A stretch of DNA of 64,000 nucleotides. Origin: Maritimibacter alkaliphilus HTCC2654 (GTDB lineage: Bacteria > Pseudomonadota > Alphaproteobacteria > Rhodobacterales > Rhodobacteraceae). Made by a program: the position numbers and the translations under genes. The notes below the pieces were generated by a model. It was not told the origin of the DNA, made no database searches, and saw only the letters and a program-made list of their open reading frames with translations. Positions 1 through 44,281 of this stretch are shown piece by piece (the first letter of the stretch is position 1; each line of letters opens with the position of its first letter). The stretch spans positions 2,985,029 to 3,049,028 of the forward strand of contig NZ_CH902578.1 in NCBI RefSeq assembly GCF_000152805.1. Reading direction: 5' to 3'.

Positions 1-1773
1 ACCCGCAAAAGAAAGGAGGCCGCCACCACCCCCTGCGGCCACGCCACCGAAAAGACCACCGATTAGAGAGCCGCCAGTGCCGCCGAAGGCGAGACTCATC
101 AAAGCCTGGAAGCCCTTCGAGATGGCGAGCTTAAGAAGGTCGCGCATCGCAGAGCGGACAAAGTCGTTCACCGCAGCCTTCAGGTCGTCCAGGTTGTCGA
201 CGTTCTCCATGACGAGGACACCGAAATCTCCCAGAAAATCCCCGACTTCCTGAGTATAGTTCTTGAGCTCCTCTCCGCTCTTCAGGAACTGGTCCTGAGC
301 CTTCTGCAGATAGGTGTTGAACTCGTCTTGTGTGATTTTTCCGGCGTTCAGGCTCTGAGTCAGGAGGTCAGTAGCTTCACGGTATTGTTGCATTCCCTTG
401 TAAACGGGATCGAGTTGCCCGAGCAGCGTGTCGAGTGAACGAGTGAGCTTGTCGGCCTCGTCCCCAGCGCCACCGCTACTACCGCGGTTGCCGTCGGTAT
501 CGCGAAGAGCTGCGAGCGCAGCTTTCTCGGCGGCCGACATCACGGCCAGCTGGCGCGCGTTGTTAATGTATTGGCTGCGTTGGCCCCGAATACCCATCGC
601 ATTCTGCAAGCCGATGTCGATACCCGAGGGAACGCGCGCATCGAACTGAGCGCCGGCCAGAGCGCCGGCCTGATCAATCGGTTGCCCGACGGTATCAAGC
701 TTGATCTTCTGAACCAGCAGGTCGTTGACCTGCTGGTTTGCGAGCGCTTGAGCAGCCGAAAAAGCTCTGCCGAGTTGGTCGGCAAGCGAAGAGGCGACGG
801 CGACGGACGGCTTTAGGGCGGGCGCGACACCGCTGGCAGCATCGGATAGGGCGTCCATGACAGCCCGAGCTTCCTCCGAATTGCGCATGAGCTTGATCAT
901 CTCGCTGACGACCGAACGCATTTCTGGCGGAAGGTCGCTGGCCGTGATGTTCATTTGCCGCATGTACTGCAGCACATTGGCAAAGGCATCTTCTTGCGCG
1001 CGCGCGCCGTCCGCGTTTCGCCAGTCTGACAAAAGGCCTTCGAACTTCCGGGCTTCTGCACCAGCCAGACCGAACTGATCAGTGATCCGGAGAAGGGTGT
1101 TTCGCAGTTCTCGACCACCCGTGGCAGAGGTCTCAAACATCCGGATAGAGTCGCCGACCGCAAGGGTCAGGGCTTCAATGCCCGCCGTTGCCTCTGCCGT
1201 TGCGATTTCGGCCTGAACCTTCGCATATGCCCGAACCTTGTCAGCCGCTTCGCCGTACTTTTCTGCCAGATCCCCCGCCGACATCGACAAAACGTCCAGC
1301 GGATCATTCAGCCTCGAGACGATCCCTTCGACGGACTTCAGCGCATTCTCAAGATCGTTTGCCTCTCCCTCGCTTCCGGATAAAGCCTCCATGAGGAATG
1401 GAAGTGCGATACCTGCAACAAGACCAATCGCGGTCCCTGCGGCGCCAAAAGCCAGACCCATATCCGGCAATTGAATAGCCAACGCTCTGACAAAGTCGCC
1501 GCCAGCCATTGCCTGCTGTCCGACTTGGCTTAGCTGCTGAGTCAGCATGCGCATAGACCCAGCAGCACCACCGGCGCTCTTGCCGAGCCGGGCGGTCGCA
1601 GAACCAGAATATACCAAGCTGCGTCCGTAGTTGTTGATTGTGGCACTTTTGGCGGCGGCAGTATTGATGCGCGTCAACTGGGTCTCGACACCCTTCAGGT
1701 AGTTCGACACACCCTTCATGGCCGGGCCGGTTTTATTGTCGGCTCGGACTGAGAATTTCAGATCTTGAAGCAC
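1..1773 (-). CDS. phage tail tape measure protein (C-terminus cut by window edge)
   Basis: Tail length-determining protein of a lambda-like siphophage. I translated it from the minus strand; the frame stays open from 1773 to base 1 (about 591 codons), so the C-terminal end is missing. The N-terminal part has conserved tape-measure-like stretches around a hydrophobic Ala/Gly-rich segment (roughly residues 90-130), then long Ala-rich helices with many Gln and Lys, then another Gly-rich hydrophobic stretch near the cut end. The start is taken as GTG at 1773 because an in-frame stop lies just upstream and ATG codons only occur further inside. It follows directly on the tail chaperone genes, the usual place for a tape measure. 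Identity rests mainly on size, composition and position. Confidence 0.85.
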   Translation of the reverse strand, partial: MLQDLKFSVRADNKTGPAMKGVSNYLKGVETQLTRINTAAAKSATINNYGRSLVYSGSATARLGKSAGGAAGSMRMLTQQLSQVGQQAMAGGDFVRALAIQLPDMGLAFGAAGTAIGLVAGIALPFLMEALSGSEGEANDLENALKSVEGIVSRLNDPLDVLSMSAGDLAEKYGEAADKVRAYAKVQAEIATAEATAGIEALTLAVGDSIRMFETSATGGRELRNTLLRITDQFGLAGAEARKFEGLLSDWRNADGARAQEDAFANVLQYMRQMNITASDLPPEMRSVVSEMIKLMRNSEEARAVMDALSDAASGVAPALKPSVAVASSLADQLGRAFSAAQALANQQVNDLLVQKIKLDTVGQPIDQAGALAGAQFDARVPSGIDIGLQNAMGIRGQRSQYINNARQLAVMSAAEKAALAALRDTDGNRGSSGGAGDEADKLTRSLDTLLGQLDPVYKGMQQYREATDLLTQSLNAGKITQDEFNTYLQKAQDQFLKSGEELKNYTQEVGDFLGDFGVLVMENVDNLDDLKAAVNDFVRSAMRDLLKLAISKGFQALMSLAFGGTGGSLIGGLFGGVAAGGGGGLLSFAG

Positions 1774-1780
1774 GGCGAGG

Positions 1781-1915
1781 TCAATTGCCCTTGAGCGTGA
1801 GGTATGTTGCGGTCACGGCGATCTGTTCTTCCGACATTTCCGCTGCGACCTCGTGCGGGTATTTGCCTAGGGCGACCGCGACCGCGAGAATGCTCTGCGC
1901 GGCCGGGTCGCCCAT
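1781..1915 (-). CDS. gpT-like tail chaperone extension, 44 codons
   Basis: A 44-codon reading frame whose ATG overlaps the stop of the upstream chaperone gene as TGATG. It ends eight bases before the tape measure start. It lies in the -1 frame relative to the chaperone, and a slippery heptamer six bases upstream of its ATG would fuse it to that chaperone, giving a product of about 158 residues. In lambda the G and GT proteins are made in exactly this way. The peptide contains EEQIAVTATYLTLKGN at its end. It could also be translated alone by reinitiation at TGATG. I did not find it as a separate named family. Confidence 0.7.
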   Translation of the reverse strand: MGDPAAQSILAVAVALGKYPHEVAAEMSEEQIAVTATYLTLKGN

Positions 1916-2256
1916 CAGACGTTTTTTACGTCGTCGGACGTCATCTTGGCTCGAGCACTGTCGGCCGCCTCGATGATGCGCCGGATCACCGAAAACTCGG
2001 CTTTGCCGGACAGAATTGCGCGCGTCTCTGCGGTGTCCTCGAACACACGCTTGCCATCCTTGTCGCAGGCTTTTCGGATGATGCTTGCGATCATCATTTC
2101 GCCGTCATCCTCGGCATCGATTCCTTTCCGGATCGACGCACGCTCCGCGGCCGTGAGCGGCGTGAAATAGAGCTTCGTGTTCCATTCCGGAACGTCAATC
2201 TCCGTTGCTGTCTGATCGGCATGGCGTTGCGAGATCGTCTGGAGAATGTCACTCAT
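1915..2256 (-). CDS. phage tail assembly chaperone (gpG-like)
   Basis: A 113-residue protein that in siphophages coats the tape measure and recruits tail tube subunits during tail assembly; it is absent from the finished virion. The sequence has the acidic and hydrophobic pattern of phage tail assembly chaperones (N-terminal region with EWNTKLYFTPLTAAER). It lies between the tail tube gene and the tape measure, the conserved position. Its ATG overlaps the end of the tail tube gene by four bases. Its last codons are GTA AAA AAC GTC TGA and contain an in-frame A AAA AAC heptamer, so a fraction of ribosomes should shift into the next frame. Confidence 0.8.
   Translation of the reverse strand: MSDILQTISQRHADQTATEIDVPEWNTKLYFTPLTAAERASIRKGIDAEDDGEMMIASIIRKACDKDGKRVFEDTAETRAILSGKAEFSVIRRIIEAADSARAKMTSDDVKNV
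1921..1927 (-). promoter_or_regulatory. -1 ribosomal frameshift slippery site A AAA AAC
   Basis: Read on the minus strand, the heptamer A AAA AAC is in the zero frame of the tail chaperone (codons GTA AAA AAC). Slipping back one base continues as CGT CTG ATG GGC, which is the frame of the 44-codon extension. This is the X XXY YYZ form known for efficient -1 frameshifting in bacteria. The site is two codons before the zero-frame stop. I have not folded the downstream RNA to look for a stimulatory structure. Confidence 0.75.
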
Positions 2257-2642
2257 GCCGACACCGTCGCGACCGAAAGCGCGCCCTTGCCGGTGATCGA
2301 ATAGGTGCGCTCGACCGGCGATTTATATTCGTGGTTCACGCCATGGCTGGTCACCGTAGCCGTTCCGGAAAGATAGGTTTTCCCGGTTGCGTCCCCCTCG
2401 GTGTAGCCTTGGAAGGCAATCTCGTCGCCAGCGCGCAGGTCCTGGCCGTCGGCCGAATGGTCAAGGCGCATCGTGATCGATCCTGACCACTTCTTGAGGG
2501 TCGTATCGTGATCCTCCCAAGTGTCGCCTGCGGCGGTGATGTCCTCGACGCCGATTTCTTCCGTGATGTCGAACGAAACCAGACCTGCAATGTCGGTGCC
2601 GTCGACTTTCACCGTGCCGTTCTTGCCGGTGTGTCGTGCCAT
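2253..2642 (-). CDS. phage major tail tube protein
   Basis: A 129-residue protein that would polymerise into the tail tube. It starts MARHTGKNGTVKVDG and has the alternating beta-strand pattern with the SFDITEE and LKKWSGSITMRLDH segments seen in phage tail tube proteins of the gpV/TTP type. It precedes the chaperone genes, overlapping the first by four bases (ATGA), and follows the tail terminator gene after a 27-base gap. The ATG at 2642 has an AAGGAGA ribosome site just upstream. Confidence 0.8.
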   Translation of the reverse strand: MARHTGKNGTVKVDGTDIAGLVSFDITEEIGVEDITAAGDTWEDHDTTLKKWSGSITMRLDHSADGQDLRAGDEIAFQGYTEGDATGKTYLSGTATVTSHGVNHEYKSPVERTYSITGKGALSVATVSA

Positions 2643-2669
2643 ATCGGTTCTCCTTGGATGGCGATTATG

Positions 2670-3101
2670 TCAGGATTGGGCGCCTTCGTCCGCGTAGCGG
2701 GTGATGGCAAAATGGATTTCGAGAGTGCCGATCCGCTTCTTGGAGCCGCCTTCGACTTGGGTCAGCACCCGCGTGACCTGGTAGAACGGGAGCTCGGTCG
2801 GCCAGCTGTCAAGGACGTCGATCACGACCGCCTCGATCGCCTCGGAATAGCCGTCGAGCGTGTCCTCGATTTCGTCGCCCCCTGCACATTTCAGAACAAC
2901 GGCGAGCTCGACATTGCGACTCGCGTTGTCCCCTGTGTCCATCTCGGCCCGTTCGTCGCGCGTGACCACGGTGAATGCAGGCAGCTCTTCGTCGTTTTTG
3001 GGTAAGGCCCATGCCCGGCAGGCTGCAACGCCGGACAGGTCGGCATGGGCCGAGAGGGCGGTCCGGACCGCGTCACGGTATGCCTTGCGGGGATGCGTCA
3101 C
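2670..3101 (-). CDS. tail terminator / minor tail protein U-like
   Basis: A 143-residue protein, likely the tail-terminator or completion protein that caps the tail tube end joined to the head. The sequence begins with a helix (HPRKAYRDAVRTALSAH) and continues with an alpha/beta fold containing RDERAEMDTGD and a run of FYQVTRVLTQVEGG, which resembles lambda gpU-type proteins. GTG is used as start; it overlaps the stop of the preceding 56-codon gene as GTGA. The position between the head-tail joiner and the tail tube gene supports the role. The family assignment is by pattern and order only. Confidence 0.6.
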   Translation of the reverse strand: MTHPRKAYRDAVRTALSAHADLSGVAACRAWALPKNDEELPAFTVVTRDERAEMDTGDNASRNVELAVVLKCAGGDEIEDTLDGYSEAIEAVVIDVLDSWPTELPFYQVTRVLTQVEGGSKKRIGTLEIHFAITRYADEGAQS

Positions 3102-3268
3102 GTCTCGGACTTCGCCTTGGCTTTGTCCGGCTGATCTTCAGCGCGGCCGAACTGGATCAGATCGCGGCGCTCCTGTTCGGTCGCCTCGAACGCGGCGCCG
3201 CGCTTAACTTTGCCCCGTGTCGCTGTTGCAGACAGGGTCATGAGCGCAATCATCGGGTATTTCTTCAT
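3098..3268 (-). CDS. small basic phage protein, 56 aa
   Basis: A short gene between the head-tail joiner and the tail terminator, overlapping both by four bases (ATGA at 3265-3268, GTGA at 3098-3101), which argues that it is translated. The product starts MKKYPMIALMTLSA, has a basic middle (RGKVKRG) and an acidic, charged end. The layout (short beta segments, then an EQERRDLIQFGRAED helix) resembles the DUF7210-type small proteins found between head and tail genes in other phages; that resemblance is tentative. No function is known to me. Confidence 0.6.
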   Translation of the reverse strand: MKKYPMIALMTLSATATRGKVKRGAAFEATEQERRDLIQFGRAEDQPDKAKAKSET

Positions 3269-3588
3269 GGGTCGATTTCCTCGAGTTCATAGATGGTGAA
3301 GCCGTCATCGGCAGGCGAGCCGGACGGCAGTCCATTGACCACCTGGTACGTGCGGCCGTTGCCGGGCTCGACGACAGTGCCGCTCGCAAGCGAAGCCTCG
3401 ACGTCGCGTGGTACACTCAAGACGGGCAGGACCGTGACGATCTCCCGGCCGTCGCCATCCGGAACCGTCACAGGGTTTTCCCGGAACACCGCCTGGATCG
3501 CGCGCGCAGCCTCGCCGTCCGGTGTGATCGTGACGGACGCGCCGAACACTCCGTTCAGCACGCCCGACACGCCGGCGAAGATCGACAC
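3265..3588 (-). CDS. head-tail joining protein (FII-like)
   Basis: A 107-residue protein likely to form the head-tail connector, comparable to lambda gpFII (117 residues). It has the N-terminal MSIFAGVSGVLNGVFGASVT segment, followed by beta-strand-rich sequence with TVPDGDGREIVTVLPVLSVPR and an acidic end. It sits immediately after the capsid decoration gene and overlaps the next small gene by four bases. In lambda the order is D, E, FI, FII, Z, U, V, so the position fits. The call rests on this and on the general sequence pattern. Confidence 0.65.
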   Translation of the reverse strand: MSIFAGVSGVLNGVFGASVTITPDGEAARAIQAVFRENPVTVPDGDGREIVTVLPVLSVPRDVEASLASGTVVEPGNGRTYQVVNGLPSGSPADDGFTIYELEEIDP

Positions 3589-3920
3589 TACCGAGCGGCG
3601 CCGTCGAGCAGCACCGTCCCCGTGGCCGACGGGTTCGCCGCCACAGCCATCGCGACACCGACCAACGTGTTGCCCGAGGCCGCGGTGGTGAACACCTTGT
3701 TGGTGTCATCCCAATAGAGCTTGGCGCCGACGGTCCAGGCCTGAGCCGAGGTCTTGGCGTGGGTGAATACACCCGAGCGCACCAGGGCGACGGTTGCGCC
3801 ACTCTCGGCATCGGCCTGCGCGATCCCGAAGATCGAGCCGACGAGGGCACCGCCGCCCGAGCTGACAGCATAGGGCGCGGGCACTTCCACCACGGCGCCG
3901 TTCTGAACGAAGTTCTGCAT
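3588..3920 (-). CDS. DUF2190 family capsid decoration / cement protein
   Basis: A 110-residue protein, MQNFVQNGAVVEVPAPYAVS at its start, with Gly-rich beta segments such as GAKLYWDDTNKVFTTAASGN. These match DUF2190 proteins, which are found after the major capsid gene and are thought to be head fibre, decoration or stabilising proteins. Its stop overlaps the ATG of the joiner gene at 3588. There is an 82-base gap to the upstream capsid gene. Confidence 0.8.
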   Translation of the reverse strand: MQNFVQNGAVVEVPAPYAVSSGGGALVGSIFGIAQADAESGATVALVRSGVFTHAKTSAQAWTVGAKLYWDDTNKVFTTAASGNTLVGVAMAVAANPSATGTVLLDGAAR

Positions 3921-4002
3921 TGTTCTGATCCTTTGATCGAAGTCGAAAACGACTGGGGGCGACCACTTGAGCCGCCCTCAGGTTGGAAAGGTCTCGGACG
4001 CC

Positions 4003-6570
4003 TTAGGAGCCGGCGTTCTTGTAAAGACCCTCCCAGGCCAGGGCCTTGGCGGCCGCGTCGAGGCGCACCTTGAACTCGGTGCCATCGACCGTCCAACCGT
4101 CCTGCTGATCGAGGAAGGGCAGCGCGATGCCGTCCAAGTAGCTGACCTCGATCGTGTCGAACCGGCTCGGATCGGCGGCGAGGAACCATGCGTCGCCAGA
4201 GATCCGGGCATCGAAGATCGGCTTGGCCGCGTCGCGCACCGTGTTGTAGGCGCGCGGCATCTTCGCGGTGCCAACCTTGTCGGTGTCATCCGGCGCATAC
4301 TCGCTGTTGAGCGCCTGCAGCACCGCCGAGCGATTGTTGGGCCCGGCGATCAGGAAGGCCGCCGGGATGTTCAGCGCGGTCGCGTTGCCTCCCCGGTCCT
4401 TCTGGGTGGCCATTGCGGTGATGCCCGCATTGATCGTGGCCTCGCCGGGCAGACCTGCCGACCCAGCAAGGTTCGCATGGTCAGCATGGAAGAGGGCGGT
4501 GCCATCCGACATGTCCGGGTTGCCGGTCAAGATCGCAAAGACCAGATCGCCGACGGTGCGGCGTGCCGCGCGGCCCATCTTCATCGGAATCCGGCTGAAG
4601 GCGTCGAGATCGTCGTTGATGATGGTCTGGCGGGTGAGGGCGAAGAGGCGGCCGTAGGTCGCGAGCACGACGCTCTCACCGTGATCGCCGATCGTGCCAT
4701 GCTTAAACTCGGCACCTTCCGGCACCTCGGTCAGCGACGGGAAGGCATCGAGGCCGACGCGCTTGGTCGGCTTGAAGTCGCCCAGCGTCCCGGTCGAGGT
4801 GAACTGTTCGAAGGTCTCCTCGGTCTCTTCGAACCCCTTCACCATCGACTTGTTGGCGAAATCGGCGAGGATGTTGCCGAAGTCGCTCGTGGAGTGCATG
4901 CCGCCCGACGCACCCGCGGGCGAGAAGGCCGCACCGGCAAGTGCCATTGCACCGCCCTGAACACTGATGCCGCGTGCCGTGAGCGAGGCCCGCGCCATCT
5001 CGCGCAGCTGCATCCCGGTGAACTCGTTGCGCTCGCCACCATCGAGCCCAACACGGGCGTAGAGCGCCTTGGTGATGCCTTCCGTGGTCCGGTCGACGAC
5101 GTCGCCCGTCACCTTGGCCGTCGGCGTGCCACCATTGATGTCGCCGCCATCCTGAGCTTTGGCCGCTTTCTCGTCGAGGATCTTGTCGTAGGCGGCCTCA
5201 AGGCTCACACCGTCCGAGATCAGTTTCTGTCCGAAGCTCGACGGGAGCCCCGCCTGAGCGACCTTCGCGGTGATCTTCGAGGCTCGTTCGCGTTCCGCTT
5301 GTACGGCCTCTTCAGCGGACGGCACGGGCGCCGTCGCGGTCTTTGCCTTCTGCTCTTCAGCGTCCGGCTTGGTGACATCTTTCGTCATGTCAGTCTCCTT
5401 GGATGAAGGGGCCTCCGCCCCGGTTTCGCAGCCGGGGCTGCAATCTTCGGCGAGGACCGTTTCGAGGTCCTGCAGCTGAATGGTTTCGCCCTGAAGCGTC
5501 ACGGGCCCGCCCAGATCGTCGATGTGCTCCTCGATCCAGGTCGTGAGGGCCGCGACGTCGGTGATGGAACTGGCAACGAGAGAGACACCCGTTGCGACAC
5601 GCCCCGCCGCCATCGCGGCCGCGGCGGCAGGTCCCGCGCTCACCGCACCGGATCTGGCCGGCGGGTTGAGCTTTTCGACCAACGCCTCGAATGCAGCGCG
5701 CGCCTCGATCACCTCGTCCGCCAGCCCGTACCTCAAGGCATCCAGCCCGGTGAAGACGCCGGCCTCGAGCTTCATCGCGCCTTGCGCTGTGATCTTGCCG
5801 CGACGGCCTTGCTCGACCGCTTCAGCGAATGCGAGCCACATCGCGTCGTTCTCCTGCTGGATCCGATCGCGCACTTCGCCTTTGAGATGCTGGTACGGGT
5901 TGCCGTCGACTTTGTGCTTGCCCGAATGGATCAGCGTCACGTTCACACCGGCATTTTCGAGCTGCGTCTGATAGTCGGCATGGATCACCACCACGCCAAT
6001 CGACCCAGCCTTCCCGAACGGCGGGATCGTCACGCGATCCGCTTGTGATGCGAGCGCATAGCCGGCCGACAGCGCGTATTCCGCGAGGAAGGCGTAGACC
6101 GGCTTTTTCTCCCGGGCCGCGCGAATGTCGGCCATCAGTTCGAAGATGCCAGCCGCTTCACCTCCGAAACTGTCGACTTCCATGGCGATCGCGCGGACGG
6201 TCTCGTCTTCGGCCGCCGCGCGGATCTGCGCACTCAGCCCTTCGTAGCTGGTCATGCCCGAGCTTTCGCCGACGAAAGACCCACGCCGAACGAGCGTGCC
6301 CGTCACCGGAATGACCGCAACCCCCTGCACGTTGAGATAGGCCGCGTGTTTCTTGACCCCGCGATAGAGGCTTCCCCCGATTATCGAGGCGGCCTCCGGA
6401 CGCGCCTCCCAGCGGTCGGCGGACGGCTGAACACCGTGCAAGTCGAGAGCGACGTCGCCCATCTCGAGGAACCGGGGGCCAAGAGCCTGAATGATCACGG
6501 CAGCTTTCTCTGGGTCGATCATGAGCGGAGTGTTGAACACCTTCGCGGCGATCTGTGCGGTCGGGGCCAT
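4003..6570 (-). CDS. S49/ClpP-like prohead protease fused to scaffold and Mu gpT-like major capsid protein
   Basis: One reading frame of 855 codons. Residues about 1-300 are an SppA/lambda gpC-type S49 protease: a VAIPVTG strand, the nucleophile serine in EYALSAGYALASQADR, and a candidate base lysine in HSGKHKVDGNPY. Residues about 395-560 are charged and helical, like a scaffold. Residues about 580-855 resemble Mu gpT-type head proteins (FKHGTIGDHGESVVLATYG, LTRQTIINDDLDAF). Protease-capsid fusions of this kind are known in phages. A strong internal ribosome site and ATG at 5388 (Met395) suggests that scaffold plus capsid (461 residues) is also made alone, as lambda makes Nu3 from inside gene C. 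The start at 6570 has AAAGGA upstream. Confidence 0.9.
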   Translation of the reverse strand: MAPTAQIAAKVFNTPLMIDPEKAAVIIQALGPRFLEMGDVALDLHGVQPSADRWEARPEAASIIGGSLYRGVKKHAAYLNVQGVAVIPVTGTLVRRGSFVGESSGMTSYEGLSAQIRAAAEDETVRAIAMEVDSFGGEAAGIFELMADIRAAREKKPVYAFLAEYALSAGYALASQADRVTIPPFGKAGSIGVVVIHADYQTQLENAGVNVTLIHSGKHKVDGNPYQHLKGEVRDRIQQENDAMWLAFAEAVEQGRRGKITAQGAMKLEAGVFTGLDALRYGLADEVIEARAAFEALVEKLNPPARSGAVSAGPAAAAAMAAGRVATGVSLVASSITDVAALTTWIEEHIDDLGGPVTLQGETIQLQDLETVLAEDCSPGCETGAEAPSSKETDMTKDVTKPDAEEQKAKTATAPVPSAEEAVQAERERASKITAKVAQAGLPSSFGQKLISDGVSLEAAYDKILDEKAAKAQDGGDINGGTPTAKVTGDVVDRTTEGITKALYARVGLDGGERNEFTGMQLREMARASLTARGISVQGGAMALAGAAFSPAGASGGMHSTSDFGNILADFANKSMVKGFEETEETFEQFTSTGTLGDFKPTKRVGLDAFPSLTEVPEGAEFKHGTIGDHGESVVLATYGRLFALTRQTIINDDLDAFSRIPMKMGRAARRTVGDLVFAILTGNPDMSDGTALFHADHANLAGSAGLPGEATINAGITAMATQKDRGGNATALNIPAAFLIAGPNNRSAVLQALNSEYAPDDTDKVGTAKMPRAYNTVRDAAKPIFDARISGDAWFLAADPSRFDTIEVSYLDGIALPFLDQQDGWTVDGTEFKVRLDAAAKALAWEGLYKNAGS
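5386..5400 (-). promoter_or_regulatory. internal ribosome binding site and ATG inside protease-capsid gene
   Basis: On the minus strand AAGGAGA (5400 to 5394) is followed by CTGAC and ATG (5388 to 5386), in frame with the 855-codon gene. This is as good a ribosome site as any in the operon. It lies at the junction between the protease part and the scaffold part, where a separate scaffold-capsid start would be useful. Confidence 0.7.
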
Positions 6571-6571
6571 G

Positions 6572-8044
6572 TCAGGTTCCTTTCGTGTCAGTGGCAGCGG
6601 GTGCAGGGTCGTGTTTGTCGGTGCTGTAGCCGACGCTCGCAGCCTTGGCGGCAGCGCGTTCTTCGGCGATCTCGGCCTCGACCTTCAGGGGATCCTTGCC
6701 CCGCTCGCGCAGCTTGCTGCGGCGGCTCGCCAGGCCCGCCTCGATCTCTGCCTTGTCGGCATTCGCATCCTTCGAAGGATCCACCACCGGGCGAGCCGGC
6801 GGGGTCCAGCGGATCTCGTAACTGTCCGGATCCAGGTCGGCGACATCTTGCACGGCCTCTTCGATCCAAGCCGCGAACCGGTCACAGACTTGCGCGATCA
6901 TCAGGTTCTGCTGCCAGTCCCGGATGTTCGGGTCCGTCGCCATCCGCCCCGCCCGATGCGAGGTGTAGTTGGACTGGCTCGTGTCCCCGGTGAACTGGTC
7001 ATAGGTGAGCCCCAGCGCCGAGGCGATCGTGCGTTCGGTCACGCGCATGAACGGCTCGTAACCTTCGACGGTCGGCGGATCTGTGAAGTCGATCTCATCC
7101 TCGTCGCCGATGTTCAGAACCGAACCGGGCGCCAGCTCGCCAAGGTCGGTCGGTGTCTCCGAAGTCTTCCAGATGGCGGCGAACATGGCCGCGACTTCCT
7201 GTCGCTTCACCTGTCCGTCCTGGTACTTCTGAAGCTCGTGCAGGAGCGTCACCACCGGAGCGAACCAGCTCACACCGCGCTGCTGCCCCGGCCGCAAGGG
7301 ATCGAACGCATGGATGATGTTCTCTGCGAGGATTCGTTTCGTGGGCGGCATGGCCCCCCAGCGGCTGCCGGGATGCTCCGCGAAGATATGGTATGCCACG
7401 CGGCGACCGATAGCGTCGAACTCAATGCCTTGGATGGCCGTATTCCCGTTCGCGAGCTTTCCGTCGATCTGCGCGTTCAGGAAATCGGCTTCCAGGACCT
7501 GCACCTGAAAGTTCAGCGGAAAGCCGTCCGATGTCCGGCGGAAACGGCGACGAAACAGAACCTCACCATCCGTGACGATCGTACCAAACCCGAGCGCCTG
7601 CTGGCCCAGCATCGTAAGGCGGCCATCGACATCCCAGTTGCGGGTCAGGCAGTGTCTTCGGATGAGCCGGTCGACCTCGTCGCGCGCCGCCGTATCGTCG
7701 TCTTCAGTATGGACAGACGGCAAGATGCCTGCGCCGACTACGTGGTTGATCAGCTGACGCCGGCCCCGCACGGCGCGAGGATTATTGCGGAGCATGTCGC
7801 GGGACATCCAGCTCAGGCGCGAGCGGTCGGCGCGTCCTGCTTCGATGGCGTCGGTCCGGTTGAACCGGAAATCCGAGGCGCGCGTTGTGCGGCCGGCCCC
7901 GTCATAGTGCCCGGACATCGAGGTCAGGGCACGGCGCTGCGATAGGGCCATCTCTCGTTGGAAGGCGAGACGGGGCGCGAAGGCTGCGATGATGTCGTTC
8001 ACGCGGCTCGCGAGGGGCGGTTGTGCCGGGGCTTTCCTGCTCAT
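6572..8044 (-). CDS. phage portal protein, lambda gpB family
   Basis: A 490-residue portal protein, forming the dodecameric ring at one vertex of the capsid through which DNA is packaged. Recognisable lambda-family features include RNNPRAVRGRRQLINHVVG near residue 90, the FQVQVLEADFLN segment, HAFDPLRPGQQRGVSWFAPV and the late RATERT/GLTYDQFTGDTSQSNYTSHR-like stretch. It overlaps the gpW-like gene by four bases and its stop is one base before the ATG of the protease-capsid gene. Size is close to lambda gpB (533). Confidence 0.92.
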   Translation of the reverse strand: MSRKAPAQPPLASRVNDIIAAFAPRLAFQREMALSQRRALTSMSGHYDGAGRTTRASDFRFNRTDAIEAGRADRSRLSWMSRDMLRNNPRAVRGRRQLINHVVGAGILPSVHTEDDDTAARDEVDRLIRRHCLTRNWDVDGRLTMLGQQALGFGTIVTDGEVLFRRRFRRTSDGFPLNFQVQVLEADFLNAQIDGKLANGNTAIQGIEFDAIGRRVAYHIFAEHPGSRWGAMPPTKRILAENIIHAFDPLRPGQQRGVSWFAPVVTLLHELQKYQDGQVKRQEVAAMFAAIWKTSETPTDLGELAPGSVLNIGDEDEIDFTDPPTVEGYEPFMRVTERTIASALGLTYDQFTGDTSQSNYTSHRAGRMATDPNIRDWQQNLMIAQVCDRFAAWIEEAVQDVADLDPDSYEIRWTPPARPVVDPSKDANADKAEIEAGLASRRSKLRERGKDPLKVEAEIAEERAAAKAASVGYSTDKHDPAPAATDTKGT

Positions 8045-8244
8045 CGCCAGCCACTCTTCGTTGTCGGCACCTGAATCCGTGTCGTGGCGGAGAGGCCAAG
8101 GTCCTCCATGATCTTGCGTTCGATGCGCTGCATCTCGGACAGACTGCGGAACTCGACGCGCTCGCCGTTCATCTGGACGCTGCGCGCACCCTTCGAGATC
8201 GCCGACCGAATGGCGGCGAGGTCTGTTTCGGTATAGTCGGCCAT
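8041..8244 (-). CDS. gpW-like head completion protein
   Basis: A 67-residue protein almost the same length as lambda gpW (68), which closes the filled head and provides the site for FII. It has the typical MADYTETDLAAIRSAISKGA helix, a short beta hairpin (SVQMNGERVEFRS) and a second helix (EMQRIERKIMEDL). It lies between the large terminase and the portal, as in lambda. Confidence 0.85.
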   Translation of the reverse strand: MADYTETDLAAIRSAISKGARSVQMNGERVEFRSLSEMQRIERKIMEDLGLSATTRIQVPTTKSGWR

Positions 8245-8256
8245 GAAGGCTCCCTG

Positions 8257-10389
8257 TCAGAATAGTCGGCGCGGCACGCGCCGCGTCGGCAGCGCATGCA
8301 GTTCGGCGGTGCCCGGTTCGGTTGCCTCAGCCGGGACGGCGTGACGGTTCTGCTCGCCACCGATCGCCCAGTCGGGCGGCGTGTCGAAGTTGATCTTCTT
8401 CAGGCCCAGCTGCTCGGCGACGACTCGCGCCATGACCGAGAGGTCGAAACTTTCGTTGCGGACGACGCCCGGTTTCTTTTCCCAGACGTTCTTGGCGTTC
8501 CGGAACTCAGACACGAACTCTTCGATCCTGTCGTCGGTCATCCAGCGAGGGATGATCAGCCCGCCGGCGGCCGAACTCCCGCGGCTCAGCATCGCGAACA
8601 CCGACTCTTTCACCCGGTCGGTCGCGAAGTTCAGGATCTTGATCGAGCGACCCTTGCCTCCGCCAGACTTGCGCTCGGGGGTCGCCAGCCAGAGACGCGA
8701 GGCCTGCTTGCCACCATTGCCCCTCGTCACGAACCAGCGCCGGCCGTAGCCCTCTTTCTTGCGGGCCTTCCAGAAGGCCTCGGCATTGTCGGAGACCCCG
8801 GGCTGCCCCTGAAAGTCCACGTTTAGCCCAGCGGCGCGCAGGCCGTATTGGGCGCCGTCGACCGGCCAGACCCGCGTGCTGAGCGCGTCGAGCACCGCCC
8901 AGTCCTCGATGTATTTGCCGGGGTCGAGCGTCCGGCCGTTTCCATCTTCGTCACGCTCCGCATTCGGCGCATCCGCCGACGGCTGGGTGATGTCGAAGCG
9001 GTCCACCACCTGGGCGCAAGATCCGTCACCCCAGGCCGTGACCTGAACCGCGAAATATGTGCCCTGCACGTCGATCGAGACGGTGATGAACCGTGTCCAC
9101 GCCGGGGCGATCCCGCGTGCAAGGTCGTGACCCTCGTCGCGCAGGAAGGCGACGCCGATCTCTTCGGTTTCGCCCTGCTTCGGGCAGAACGGAACACCGA
9201 TCTCCGTGTAATGGACCGTCGCCAGGTCGGTATGATCGTCCAGCTGCTCGGCCCGCCGCCGAGCTTCCTCGTAGTTGGCGACCAGATCACGCCAGCTGGC
9301 AAAGGTCGCGGCCGCGCCATTGAGCGCGTAGCTCACGACGTCCGTCTTGCGGATCCCGGTGTCGCCAAGCGCGACCACCGTGCCGTCCGGTCCCTCATGG
9401 CGCCAGCCGCCGCGCCCCGCGAGTGCAGCACGGTTCAAGGTCATCTTGTGACGATGCGCGATCAGGCTCCCGCAATGAGGGCATTCCATCTCGGCGTGGT
9501 CGCCGGCGTCGCCGGGATCCAGTGCATCGTCATAGTGCAGTCGATCAAACCGAGGCTCGAACTCGCCAGCGCAATCGGGACATTCCTAGTGCCAACGGGC
9601 CCGCGTGCCCTGATTGTAGAGCGGCACGATCCCGCCACCGACGGGCGGCATCTCGTGCGGCGCCGTTGGCGATGGTCGCCAGCTCGGGTCTATCACCTGA
9701 TAGGCAGGGCTGCTCTCGACCAGGACGAGGCCCCGGCTCAGGTAGGATTTCACCCGCTGCAGCCCCATCCGGTAAGGCGTTCCTTCGGGATTGTCCTTGC
9801 CGCCGAGCACGGCCGGATGGTGATCATAGTCGGTGAAGAGGACCATCTTGTAGGTCCCGCCCGAAAGCATCGTCGGCGTTGGGTATCCGATTGTGAGCCG
9901 CATACCCCGGAAACGCTTCCGGCTGAATGTGTCGTCGTCACGGGCACGCCCCAGCCGGTCCCTGATCACCGGGCTGTTCTGGATCAGCGGGTTCAGCTTC
10001 TCCTCAACCCACTTGTCGCGGTCGCTCTTCGACATGTGCACGATCAGGATCGGGTTGGGATCGCAGATCGGCGCATGCAGAGCCGTGGTCTGCAACATCA
10101 TCGTCTTGCCGGACTGCGACGGACCGACGAACACGACCGTCTTGAACCGGCGCGACTGCGTGATGTCGCTTGGCTCGACCATGTAGGGCGTCACGCTCCT
10201 GTCGTAGCTTTGCCAAGCCCCTTGCGCCTGCACCCGGATGTAGCGCTCGGCCGCATCCGTGACCGTGATCCGGCTCGGTGGATCCATGACCGGCAGCGCG
10301 TCGGACAAGATGTCTTCCGGGGTCCTGAGTGGCGGCAGTGGCGCGAAGGCGCCAAGGCTGCCGATCGCCGCGTCGGTCATTTGCACCAT
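8257..10389 (-). pseudogene. large terminase subunit (GpA family) with in-frame amber codon
   Basis: ATPase-nuclease that packages phage DNA. The frame runs for 711 codons from ATG at 10389 but is interrupted by TAG at 9588-9586 (codon 268). Both parts are in the same frame, so this is one nonsense codon and not a frameshift. Part 1 has Walker A GPSQSGKT (residues 89-96) and a FTDYDHHP acidic strand. The amber directly precedes CPDC and CPHC, a four-cysteine zinc motif. In GpA relatives a tryptophan is common just before the first cysteine, so TGG to TAG is the likely change. Downstream, 410 codons stay open and conserved-looking. Possible explanations: recent inactivation, amber readthrough, or a sequencing error. 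It starts by TGATG overlap with the small terminase gene. Confidence 0.88.
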
Positions 10390-24540: not shown

Positions 24541-26027
24541 CGGTTACCCATCGCTACGAAGACCGCGCCAAATCCTCTGCGACGCTATTCGGTCGGGACG
24601 GCCTCTTGGCCCTGATTGCAGACGCCAAGGAACGGGTTTTCGACGTGATCGTGGTGGAGGCGCTGGACCGTATTAGCCGAAACCCGGCCGACCTTCACCC
24701 GCTGTTCCAGACGCTCGACTTCGTGGGGATCCGAGTGCTCGAAGTGCACCGGGGGCAAGCCGACGCGCTGACCGTCGGCATCCAGGGCCTGTTCGGCCAA
24801 ATGTTTCTCGACCAGCTGAAAGAAAAGACCAGGCGCGGGCTTGCCGGCGTGGTGCGTGACGGGCGCAGCGCCGGGGGCAGGGCCTATGGTTACGTAACCG
24901 TGCCCGGCCAGCCAGGCCAGCTGACGGTCGTCGAAGGCGAGGCCAAAATCATCCGCCGGATTTTCGACGAATACATCGGTGGCGCCACGACGCGCGAGAT
25001 TGTCGCTCGACTGAACGCAGAGGGTATTCCGGCACCGCGGGGCAGTGTCTGGCGCTCGACGGTGCTGACCGGGAATGCCGCGCGCGGCTATGGCATACTT
25101 TGGAACGACCTCTACGACGGCAAGCGTATTTGGAACCGCGTGCGAATGGTGCGCGATCCGGAAACTGGTAAGCGCGTGAGCCGCACGAACCCGGAATCGG
25201 AATGGCAGATCGAGGCGGCCGAGCATCTGCGCATCGTACCGCCCGCAACCTTCGCCGCCGTCCGAAAGTTGCGTCTCGCGCGCATGGAGCTGAGGGGAGA
25301 GAAGCGCAAACGCCCGGCGCGGCCTCTGTCCGGACTGATGGCCTGCGACTGCTGCGGCGGCTCCATCGTGATTCGCGCACGCCGACCGAATGGCGCGGTC
25401 CAGGCGGCCTGTTCGAACGCGGTGGAAGCTGGCACCTGCACAGAGCGGAAGTCCGTCCGGCTAGACCAGATCGAAACTGCGGTATTCGCCGAACTAGCCC
25501 AACTCTTGCGCGAGCCTGACGTAATGGGTGAATACCTGAAGGCTTATCACGAAGAACGTCAGCGCCTCGCCCGCGAAAAGGGGCGGACCCGTGCCACACT
25601 TGAACGTTCGGCGGCCAAGGCACGCGGTGCCTTCGACCGGGCCCACCAGCTCTACATTGACGGGGTGACTGACGGTCCTAAGGCTAAGGCCAGCATCCTC
25701 GAATTGCGGCTCGCGGCCGAGCGAGCCGAAGCTGCGTTGGCGGAAGCTGACCCGCCCGAGGTCCTTACACTGCATCCTGACGCGACGAACCGATACTTGG
25801 CTGCGCTAACCGATCTCGCACCATCATTGTCGGACCTAGACACGCCCGAAGCGCGCAAGGCAATGGATACGATCAGAGAGTGGATTTCGGAGATTCGTGT
25901 GCGACGAGAGGGCGACGAAGTCCACGTAACGGTCTACGGATACCTCGCCGCCCTCGTCGAGCCATCCACCCGGCGGGGCGAGATGGTAGCGTGGGGCGGA
26001 CTTGAACCGCCGACCCCAGCATTATGA
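24417..26027 (+). CDS. large serine recombinase (phage integrase)
   Basis: A 536-residue site-specific recombinase for integration and excision. Resolvase domain residues 1-150 with catalytic Ser16 in YARFSTDLQ and the SIEDQ motif; recombinase domain about 155-270 (YGYVTVPG, STVLTGNAARGYGILWN); zinc ribbon about 308-342 (MACDCCGG and CSNAVEAGTC); then a coiled-coil region and a C-terminal tail. The last eleven residues, WGGLEPPTPAL, and the stop codon are the antisense of the tRNA-Met gene. GGAGAG precedes the ATG. Lying at the end of the element, it marks the prophage boundary. Confidence 0.93.
   Translation: MQRIDGRRAALYARFSTDLQNDRSIEDQLALCNGYAVREGLTVTHRYEDRAKSSATLFGRDGLLALIADAKERVFDVIVVEALDRISRNPADLHPLFQTLDFVGIRVLEVHRGQADALTVGIQGLFGQMFLDQLKEKTRRGLAGVVRDGRSAGGRAYGYVTVPGQPGQLTVVEGEAKIIRRIFDEYIGGATTREIVARLNAEGIPAPRGSVWRSTVLTGNAARGYGILWNDLYDGKRIWNRVRMVRDPETGKRVSRTNPESEWQIEAAEHLRIVPPATFAAVRKLRLARMELRGEKRKRPARPLSGLMACDCCGGSIVIRARRPNGAVQAACSNAVEAGTCTERKSVRLDQIETAVFAELAQLLREPDVMGEYLKAYHEERQRLAREKGRTRATLERSAAKARGAFDRAHQLYIDGVTDGPKAKASILELRLAAERAEAALAEADPPEVLTLHPDATNRYLAALTDLAPSLSDLDTPEARKAMDTIREWISEIRVRREGDEVHVTVYGYLAALVEPSTRRGEMVAWGGLEPPTPAL
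25984..26027. other. prophage attachment site (right end), within the tRNA 3' half
   Basis: The recombinase frame runs into the tRNA 3' half and the tRNA is intact, so the phage attachment core must carry this tRNA segment. The exact crossover cannot be seen here because the other junction lies left of base 1. The limits given are those shared by the recombinase coding end and the tRNA. Confidence 0.6.
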
Positions 26028-26060
26028 GTGCTGTGCTCTAACCGGCTGAGCTACCACGCC
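25984..26060 (-). tRNA. tRNA-Met (CAT), elongator
   Basis: On the minus strand a full cloverleaf can be drawn: acceptor GGCGTGG with CCACGCT (G1-U72 wobble), D arm GCTC/GAGC, anticodon stem CAGCA/TGCTG with loop CTCATAA, variable loop, T arm GGCGG/CCGCC with TTCAAGT, discriminator A and an encoded CCA. The sequence around the anticodon is very close to E. coli elongator tRNA-Met, which favours Met over the Ile(CAU) alternative. The prophage occupies the sequence beyond its 3' end. Confidence 0.95.
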
Positions 26061-26075
26061 ATTCACACGAAGGGG

Positions 26076-26104
26076 CAGATAGCCGCCGGGGCGGGGCGTG
26101 TCAA
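26076..26104 (-). promoter_or_regulatory. promoter of tRNA-Met
   Basis: TTGACA (26104-26099), 17 bases, TATCTG (26081-26076) on the minus strand; transcription would begin about eight bases before the tRNA. Confidence 0.7.
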
Positions 26105-26123
26105 CGCACAAATGGCGGGTTTT

Positions 26124-26588
26124 TCAGCGGTGGAGGTATTTCTCGAACGCCCAGCCGATCGCGCCGCTTTGATGCTTCACCCGCACCCATCCGCCGGATC
26201 GCTCAAGGAGGGTGACGGCTTCGCCATTATACATCGGGCGGATGATCTGGTAGCGCGTGCCCGGTCCGGTCCGGAGGTTCAGGTATCCGTCGTTCGGCGA
26301 ATACACATACCGCACGTTGGTCGCAGCGGGACGGACGAGGTACTTGGCGAAGGCCCAGCCGACGGCACCGCTTTCATGCCGGACCCGGACCCAGCCGTTC
26401 GCGTATTCCAGCGTCTCGACCGCGCTGCCGTGATACATCTTGCGGATGATATTGTATTGCGAGCCGGGGCCGGTGCGCAGGTTCAGGAACCCGTCGCCGG
26501 GGGAATTCACCAGCAGGCGTTCGGCACGGGCGGCCGTCGCGGTGACCAGCGCGGCAGCGGCGGACGTCAGGAACAGACGGCGTTTCAT
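26124..26588 (-). CDS. secreted protein with two SH3b domains
   Basis: A 154-residue exported protein. Residues 1-22 are a signal peptide (MKRRLFLTSAAAALVTATAA, with twin Arg). Two bacterial SH3 repeats follow, each with LNLRTGPG, a YNGEAV/YHGSAV-type strand and GWVRV(R/K)HxSGAxGWAF, so it is an internal duplication. Such proteins bind cell-wall material. GGGGAGGG precedes the ATG. First host gene after the tRNA. Confidence 0.85.
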   Translation of the reverse strand: MKRRLFLTSAAAALVTATAARAERLLVNSPGDGFLNLRTGPGSQYNIIRKMYHGSAVETLEYANGWVRVRHESGAVGWAFAKYLVRPAATNVRYVYSPNDGYLNLRTGPGTRYQIIRPMYNGEAVTLLERSGGWVRVKHQSGAIGWAFEKYLHR

Positions 26589-29781: not shown

Positions 29782-29871
29782 GCTTCTCTGGTCCCCAAAT
29801 ACCTCGGGGGGTCCGGGGGGCTGGCCCCCCGGCGGGTCGGACGGGCTCTGCCCGTTCGACCCCACTCAAGA
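29782..29871. repeat. GC-rich palindromic intergenic repeat, copy 1
   Basis: Begins TTCTCTGGTCCCCAAATACC and contains the palindromic GGGGGGCTGGCCCCCC block and a second hairpin (GTCGGACGGGCTCTGCCCGT). Two further copies are at 43203 and 56411. The repeat lies between gene ends, so it may act in mRNA 3' ends. Confidence 0.7.
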
Positions 29872-43202: not shown

Positions 43203-43274
43203 CTTCTCTGTTTCCGGAAACCTCGGGGGTGCGGGGGCAGCGCCCCCGCCTTGGTCCGGGGCTTCAGCCCCGGA
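43203..43274. repeat. GC-rich palindromic intergenic repeat, copy 2
   Basis: Begins CTTCTCTGTTTCCGGAAACC, then GCGGGGGCAGCGCCCCCGC and CCGGGGCTTCAGCCCCGG hairpins. It lies between dgcN and dgcA. Related to the copies at 29782 and 56411. Confidence 0.7.
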
Positions 43275-43276
43275 AA

Positions 43277-44281
43277 CTACCCCATCGCCGCCAGCGCATC
43301 CACCAGCTTGGCCGATCCGAAGCGGTAGGGGTCGGTCGCAGGCAGGCCCAGACGCTCTTCTACCTCGGCAAGGTATGCCTTGGCCTCGTCCTCGCCCATG
43401 TGCTGCGTGTTGACCGAGATGCCGACGACCTCGCAGGCCGGGTTGCCCACGCGGGCCAGCGGCAGGGCGGTGTCGCGCAGGGTTTCCAGCGACGGGGGCT
43501 GATAGCCGGGCAGGCCGCGCATGTGATCGCGCGTCGGCTCATGGCACAGGATCAGCGCATCGGGTTGTCCCCCGTGAATCAGCGCCATGGTCACGCCGGA
43601 GTAACTGACGTGGAACAACGACCCCTGACCTTCGATCAGGTCCCAGTGGTCGTCATCGTTGTCGGGCGTCAGCCATTCGATCGACCCGGCCATGAAATCC
43701 GCGATCACGGCGTCGAGCGGCACGCCGTCGCCGGTGATGAGGATGCCCGTCTGGCCCGTGGCGCGGAAGGTCGATTTCATGCCGCGCTCGCGCATCTCGG
43801 CGTCCATCGCCATGGCGGTGTACATCTTGCCGACCGAGCAATCCGTTCCGACGGCGAGGCAGCGTTTGCCACTGCGCTTCTCGCCGTTCGCGATGGGGTA
43901 TTTGACCGACGGAACGCGCACGTCGTGCAGGGTCTGCCCGGTCGCCTTCGCCACGGCCACGAGGTCTTCCTCATCGCGCAGCAGGTTGTGAAGCCCGCTC
44001 GCCAGATCGAAGCCTTCTTCGAGCGCGGCGATCAGGACCTTTTTCCAAGCCTGACTGATGACGCCACCCCGGTTCGCGACGCCGATGACGAGTGTCTTGG
44101 CGCCAGCTTCCTTGGCTTCGGCAAGTGTCATGTCGGGCAGTTTCATGTCGGCCTTGCATCCGTCCATGCGGAATTGACCGACGGCGTTCTCGGGGCGCCA
44201 GTCCTTGATGCCCTGCGCCACTTTCGCGGCAAGGGGGTCGGGCGCATCGCCGAGGAATAGAAGATATGGTGTCTGGATCAT
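43277..44281 (-). CDS. dgcN: D-glutamate N-acetyltransferase DgcN
   Basis: A 334-residue protein of the former DUF1611 family, which N-acetylates D-glutamate in the DgcN-DgcA pathway. Features: MIQTPYLLFLGDAPDPLAAK, KTLVIGVANRGGVIS, a P-loop-like GTDCSVGKMYTAMAMD, FRATGQTGILITGDGVPLDA and VSYSGVTMALIHGGQPDALI. First gene of the dgcN-dgcA-dat group. A regulator (DgcR) is not seen next to it. Confidence 0.85.
   Translation of the reverse strand: MIQTPYLLFLGDAPDPLAAKVAQGIKDWRPENAVGQFRMDGCKADMKLPDMTLAEAKEAGAKTLVIGVANRGGVISQAWKKVLIAALEEGFDLASGLHNLLRDEEDLVAVAKATGQTLHDVRVPSVKYPIANGEKRSGKRCLAVGTDCSVGKMYTAMAMDAEMRERGMKSTFRATGQTGILITGDGVPLDAVIADFMAGSIEWLTPDNDDDHWDLIEGQGSLFHVSYSGVTMALIHGGQPDALILCHEPTRDHMRGLPGYQPPSLETLRDTALPLARVGNPACEVVGISVNTQHMGEDEAKAYLAEVEERLGLPATDPYRFGSAKLVDALAAMG

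Follow-up and report, generated by a model that had tools for sequence, protein, structure and literature searches.

Tail genes and overlapping frames in the window

The window (the whole stretch of DNA that was analysed, 64,000 nucleotides) carries on its minus strand a group of phage tail genes in which the gene here called G is placed between the tail tube protein gene and the tape measure gene (Table 1). The product of G was identified by a profile match to PHROG_344, "tail assembly chaperone" (E 8.4e-12 over residues 15-99). For the tail tube ORF, Pfam tail tube families matched only below their cut-offs. The tape measure ORF starts with the GTG at position 1773 and is complete in locus L106, where it is followed by more large ORFs on the same strand.

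Table 1. Tail genes, proposed frameshift elements and their positions in the window
Feature	Position	Strand	Evidence
Tail terminator	2670..3101	-	PHROG_4204 tail terminator, 8.4e-7
Tail tube (major tail) protein	2253..2642	-	PHROG_1407 major tail protein, 1.3e-6
G, tail assembly chaperone, zero-frame product of 113 aa	1915..2256	-	ORF; PHROG_344
Slippery heptamer A AAA AAC, in phase, one codon ahead of the G stop	1921..1927	-	Sequence; place conserved in homologues
Spacer of 7 nt between heptamer and hairpin, containing the G stop TGA (1917..1915)	1914..1920	-	
Predicted stimulatory hairpin, 44 nt, dG -35.7 kcal/mol	1870..1913	-	Folding prediction
T extension, -1 frame, 46 residues after the slip (RLMGDP...LKGN) plus stop	1781..1921	-	ORF; lambda gpT likeness
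Tail tape measure protein, extending past the window edge	1..1773	-	PHROG_24, 1.4e-4, and PHROG_167, 6.7e-3, both weak

Slippery site and reading frames

The 3' end of G reads GAC GTA AAA AAC GTC TGA TGG. The initial annotation had proposed a programmed -1 frameshift at this place, and most of its elements were recovered: the A AAA AAC heptamer lies in the zero frame of G near its stop, the -1 frame extension runs to a stop at 1783..1781, just short of the tape measure gene, the ORF of T has 44 codons when counted from the ATG in TGATG, and the fusion amounts to 158 residues (112 + 46). This ATG, at 1915..1913, might also serve to initiate a free T of 44 aa. After the slip, the -1 frame begins CGT CTG ATG GGC GAC. 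Tandem slippage yields the junction VKN-RLMGD, and a slip that takes place before AAC is decoded yields VKK-RLMGD; the fusion junction VKK-RLMGD of the initial annotation has thus to be corrected, as tandem slippage predicts VKN-RLMGD as the main one.

The sequence AAAAAAC occurs twice on both strands of the window against a chance mean of 2.72, so the evidence lies in the phase and place of the heptamer and not in its bare occurrence. In the 2,544 codons of eight late ORFs only two in-phase heptamers of the form X XXY YYZ were found, the other one being located 68 codons from its stop. Under local codon use, V-K-N is spelled GTA AAA AAC with a probability of 0.7%, and a strong heptamer (one of four) appeared within the last 15 codons in 0.8% of 20,000 synonymous versions of G.

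In Escherichia coli, A AAA AAC is far less slippery than A AAA AAG (excerpt of PMC5009743). Among 39 host tRNA matches the sole tRNA-Lys is UUU; this list must be incomplete, as it contains neither tRNA-Ile nor tRNA-Tyr. A search pattern designed for a lysine tRNA with the CUU anticodon hit a single sequence that is not a tRNA, and an equivalent pattern for tRNA-Ile, which served as a positive control, also failed. With an incomplete list and a failed control, the idea that tRNA-Lys(CUU) explains the use of AAC over AAG is neither supported nor excluded.

Homologues and conservation of the site

Relatives of G were found in seven of 390 genomes of the order and four of 394 of the family (the genome of the window counted each time), and a PHROG_344 search of the class gave five of 385 genomes, including the window's own. 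Relatives were also present in four viral contigs, of which one has the same sequence as the window across G, and in eight phage records, six of which were examined (H4 and H5 were left out). Forty more viral contig loci were gathered through their capsid and portal proteins, irrespective of G. The plasmid search gave no match, and a single-protein search of genome contigs returned no relative. A profile (A1) was built from 12 G proteins, which match it by construction; the other 11 are only 22-36% identical to G of the window. This profile detected 49 G ORFs in 48 of 62 loci and left 14 loci without a match. Removal of 11 duplicates (identical in the 120 nt around the G stop) resulted in 38 distinct G genes, that of the window included.

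Within the last 20 codons of G, an in-phase A AAA AAC (8) or G GGA AAC (28) followed by T in the -1 frame was present in 36 of the 38 distinct genes. The heptamer is separated from the stop by 0 codons in nine of these 36 sites, 1 in four, 10 in 22 and 12 in one. Inspection of L064, L066 and 13 of the 14 matchless loci added four sites (L064, L066, L018, and L019), bringing the total to 40; the conservation in relatives which the initial annotation had set as a check is therefore evident. No heptamer site was seen in the remaining eight of these loci, whose contigs may not reach G. Left uncounted were candidates in other genes of L024 and L062 (A AAA AAG in both, and G GGA AAA in L024) and one extra heptamer each in L066 and L033. 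Hereafter, sites whose heptamer precedes the stop by 0-1 codons are called near-stop (n = 17) and those whose heptamer precedes it by 10-12 codons far-stop (n = 23); sites inside one lineage are not independent.

The site is absent from two of the 38 genes, that of L013 and the second G copy of L010. In L013 (marine virus AG-345-A17, 1896-2450) the T-like sequence lies in the +1 (or -2) frame relative to G, which ends with AAA AGC, indicating either a different shift or a sequence error. Locus L010 contains a tandem pair of G genes (1176-2411), and G GGA AAC with a T extension is found in the first copy only.

GT is unannotated in the five annotated phage records (L012 and L014-L017; L013 carries no annotation), where the T frame falls into the gap, 138-166 nt long, that separates G from the tape measure gene.

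The T domain and its relation to lambda proteins

The T extension is conserved, and an alignment of T sequences (A3, 13 rows) shows its distant relation to the N-terminal part of lambda gpT, with a match to residues 3-43 over 40 columns (hhalign probability 66, E 5.7e-5). Family searches point in the same direction for some relatives: the longer T of L018 matched Pfam Phage_tail_T PF06223 (3.3e-17) and PHROG_337 (6.5e-25), and the latter family was also matched by lambda T (4.7e-7), T of L009 (1.9e-6) and, more weakly, T of L037, which belongs to the 10-codon lineage (4.3e-4). The window's T taken alone matched no Pfam family and no PHROG better than 0.2.

For G, no match to PF06894, the family of lambda gpG, was obtained at E up to 1 (the lambda G control gave 9e-62), and the comparison of A1 with lambda G by hhalign (probability 0.2) detected no relation. 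The correspondence with lambda G/GT advanced in the initial annotation consequently applies to the arrangement and, through hhalign, to T, and does not extend to G, for which no relation to gpG was detected.

A predicted hairpin downstream of the heptamer

Downstream of the heptamer a stable hairpin is predicted (Table 1), an element that had escaped the initial annotation. The 60 nt past the heptamer fold with -41.2 kcal/mol (z -6.9 vs dinucleotide shuffles) and the 80 nt past it with -43.3 kcal/mol (z -4.0). The 60-nt stretch was the most stable of 439 scanned along the minus strand in 1..8900, and none of 400 synonymous recodings that kept the T protein and local codon use was as stable (z -4.6). 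Stimulatory hairpins are spaced 5-9 nt from the heptamer, and by prediction the window, with its spacer of 7 nt, conforms to the dnaX-like class with a stable hairpin at that distance. The prediction is confined to folds free of pseudoknots. An upstream Shine-Dalgarno-like stimulator is absent in the window, where the best anti-SD pairing reaches -0.6 kcal/mol.

When the whole window was scanned on both strands (25,576 stretches), only two other places were as stable or more, at 29801-29870 and 43226-43285. Within the tape measure gene, 738..712 (-) forms a perfect 12-base inverted repeat with a 3-base loop (z -5.6, the second lowest value in the 1..8900 scan).

Folding across relatives

Against dinucleotide shuffles, z was below -2 over the 60 nt past the heptamer at 16 of 36 sites. 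With synonymous recoding as the test (z <= -1.65), 14 of the 17 near-stop sites passed (13 of 16 if the window is left aside), with L019 passing by a narrow margin (z -1.66); when sites at least 80% identical over 60 nt were merged, 11 of 14 groups passed. The three near-stop sites that failed are those of L012, L014, and L017; L012 and L017 are Pelagibacter phages, with a G+C content of 22-27% there. Among the far-stop sites 22 of 23 failed, the sole pass being L041 (z -1.72).

The excess of structure at near-stop sites is confined in position. In 48-nt windows, their mean z was -2.2 to -2.75 at offsets of +1 to +8 nt, with the minimum at +6, vs -0.76 to +0.60 at offsets below -12 and above +18. 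Far-stop sites displayed mean values of -0.5 to -1.0 at +1 to +9 and a minimum of -1.44 at -60, thus no such peak. The best single hairpins of near-stop sites have spacers of 2 to 11 nt: 7 nt in the window, L003, and L018; 5 or 6 nt in L004, L064, L016, L009, L010, and, as a weak hairpin, L017; 4 nt in L014; 2 nt in L066; and 10 or 11 nt in L002, L019, and L005-L007. No hairpin was found at the near-stop site of L012. The hairpins of L001, L002, and L003 occupy a similar place with different pairing registers.

Pairing with the anti-SD sequence was also compared with control stretches. The mean best pairing was -4.5 at near-stop and -5.2 at far-stop sites vs -2.6 and -2.5 in the respective controls, and values of -6 or better were reached at 3 of 17 near-stop and 9 of 23 far-stop sites vs 6 and 8% of controls. 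Because G ends in an acidic stretch, and hence in GA-rich codons, this pairing may be a by-product, and no conclusion was drawn from it.

A general rule that the hairpin occurs only with a heptamer at the stop was considered and rejected, as the division into near- and far-stop sites was made post hoc, the far-stop group is mostly one lineage, and the Rhodobacter phage RcKemmy, with its heptamer 30 codons before the stop, has a hairpin. The hairpin does not simply follow the host either, since the far-stop site of L021 comes from a genome of the same class (10% contamination). Judging by the phage relatives of the window, the host is probably a member of the Rhodobacterales.

Comparison with known frameshift systems

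The window site is a probable added case of a frameshift long known from lambda and numerous other phages, to which the predicted downstream hairpin contributes a new element. Lambda G/GT (L107) shares with it the order tube, G, T, tape measure, a heptamer near the end of G and the -1 shift; it differs in that the heptamer is G GGA AAG, 5 codons before the stop, that no excess structure follows it (z +0.83), and that its extension comprises 144 codons vs 46 in the window. In lambda, G and GT are produced at a ratio of about 30:1, GT links the tape measure and tail tube proteins, and the shift is widely conserved (excerpt of PMC5009743). The HK97-type chaperone, annotated in L111, is alike in gene position and in being a -1 frameshift fusion; HK97 G has no in-phase X XXY YYZ heptamer in its last 50 codons. 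Two chaperone genes of an HK97-like cluster show 6 and 7% frameshifting (excerpt of PMC3711429).

Escherichia coli dnaX also combines an A-rich heptamer with a downstream hairpin, but its heptamer is A AAA AAG, and it relies in addition on an upstream Shine-Dalgarno-like stimulator that the window lacks (excerpts of PMC3711429, PMC5009743). In corynephage phi16 a -1 site for tail assembly was likewise proposed together with an RNA structure; there an internal SD, GGGGGAA and an H-type pseudoknot are proposed, in contrast to the simple hairpin predicted in the window (excerpt of PMC5506516).

RcKemmy (L108) has an annotated joined chaperone CDS, and its G GGA AAC precedes a stable hairpin (z -3.35, or -2.61 against synonymous recodings). 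It is set apart by the distance of the heptamer from the stop and by an extension of 118 codons, and the heptamer is a candidate for the annotated joint. The heptamer and hairpin lie at about 3588-3650 of L108, with the main stem about 6 nt past the heptamer. In F10 the only heptamer is T TTT TTC, 13 codons from the stop (z -1.1), and the single heptamer of mEp043 has a one-codon extension and is not a site. The frameshift is usual in the described phages of Rhodobacter capsulatus but not evident in RcZahn (excerpt of PMC8601537). In the SEA-PHAGES genomes 2,397 joined tail chaperones have been annotated (excerpt of PMC10885494). Among the papers listed by the literature searches, none was seen to describe a hairpin conserved in position within this group; earlier work (Xu 2004) may treat stimulators.

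Proposed mechanism and alternative explanations

From the site, its phase, the conserved extension, the predicted hairpin and the gene order, we infer that GT is very probably made by a -1 frameshift on A AAA AAC, with the hairpin probably aiding the slip. Ribosomes translating G would reach GTA AAA AAC, where the tRNAs on AAA and AAC would slip together one base back onto AAA AAA; the strong hairpin located 7 nt downstream probably holds the ribosome at the site and so favours the slip. The majority of ribosomes would stay in frame, add Val and stop, giving G, and a minority would enter the -1 frame, giving GT. By analogy with lambda, the probable partner of G is the tape measure protein, and T, as part of GT, is likely to bring in tail tube subunits. 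With such roles the G:GT ratio would matter for tail assembly, and the production of both proteins in a fixed ratio can be predicted for the window. Four observations speak against this interpretation, namely the T ATG at the G stop of the window, the low slipperiness of A AAA AAC relative to A AAA AAG in E. coli, the two of 38 G genes without the site and the fact that the hairpin is not universal.

The first of these observations allows a different reading, in which a free T of 44 aa arises by reinitiation at TGATG and the heptamer is incidental. The overlap does exist in the window, and a T-frame ATG at the G stop is found in six of the 17 near-stop sites (L001, L003, L005-L007, and L066) and in some far-stop ones. 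Nevertheless, the first 12 codons of T have no ATG in 27 of the 40 sites, and no ATG, GTG or TTG in 26. In addition, the conserved T residues of the 10-codon lineage start at the heptamer, upstream of any such start, and L011 presents the same picture, with the heptamer 12 codons before the stop, T-like sequence from the heptamer onwards and none of these three start codons among the first 12 codons of its T. As G continues for 10-12 codons past the point where these T residues begin, no ordinary start codon could make such a T. In the window itself the G of the ATG is the first base of the predicted hairpin, so this codon may be partly masked. Reinitiation as the sole origin of T is therefore very unlikely. 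The initial annotation had put forward TGATG as a second route beside the frameshift; as an extra source of T this route may operate in the window, and among the relatives the overlap is not conserved.

Slippage could also be placed at transcription, with RNA polymerase rather than the ribosome slipping on the A6 run. Such a run is present, and L012 and L017 have nine A before the C; however, transcriptional slippage requires longer runs than the three bases found inside G GGA AAC, the heptamer at 28 of the 36 sites, which makes this explanation scarcely credible. A less improbable, though still unlikely, view accepts the frameshift and gives the hairpin a different role, for example to restrict reinitiation at the start of T or to act on transcription or mRNA stability. 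The predicted hairpin is indeed very stable and touches the T ATG, but the excess structure peaks 5-7 nt past the heptamer over 17 sites, 11 of them lacking an ATG for T where G stops, and in the window the hairpin is not followed by a T run. A ribosomal -1 frameshift assisted by the hairpin thus stays the preferred explanation.

With some confidence, this proposal can be extended to a broad set of tail-chaperone sites, mostly from the same bacterial family and class as the window, in which the G:GT ratio would be set by a dedicated hairpin placed some 5-7 nt beyond the heptamer, its place being kept as its sequence and pairing register turn over, unlike in lambda and the hairpinless 10-codon lineage. 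If this is true, the two layouts would represent alternative ways to reach one stoichiometry, and the group would provide a natural experiment on slippage of the bacterial ribosome at A AAA AAC and G GGA AAC. In the 40 natural sites the job of the protein is constant and the heptamer, the distance to the stop and the hairpin vary, so the determinants of the frameshift rate become comparable.

Possible prophage boundary

No exact repeat of at least 17 bases that could serve as an attachment repeat was found between 25801-26200 of the window and L106. The only tRNA of the window is tRNA-Met(CAT), 25984..26060 (-). Assuming collinearity, the start of the viral contig IMGVR_UViG_2693429867_000002 (40.7 kb) would map at about 26026, inside this tRNA, suggesting that the prophage may sit in the tRNA-Met(CAT) gene.
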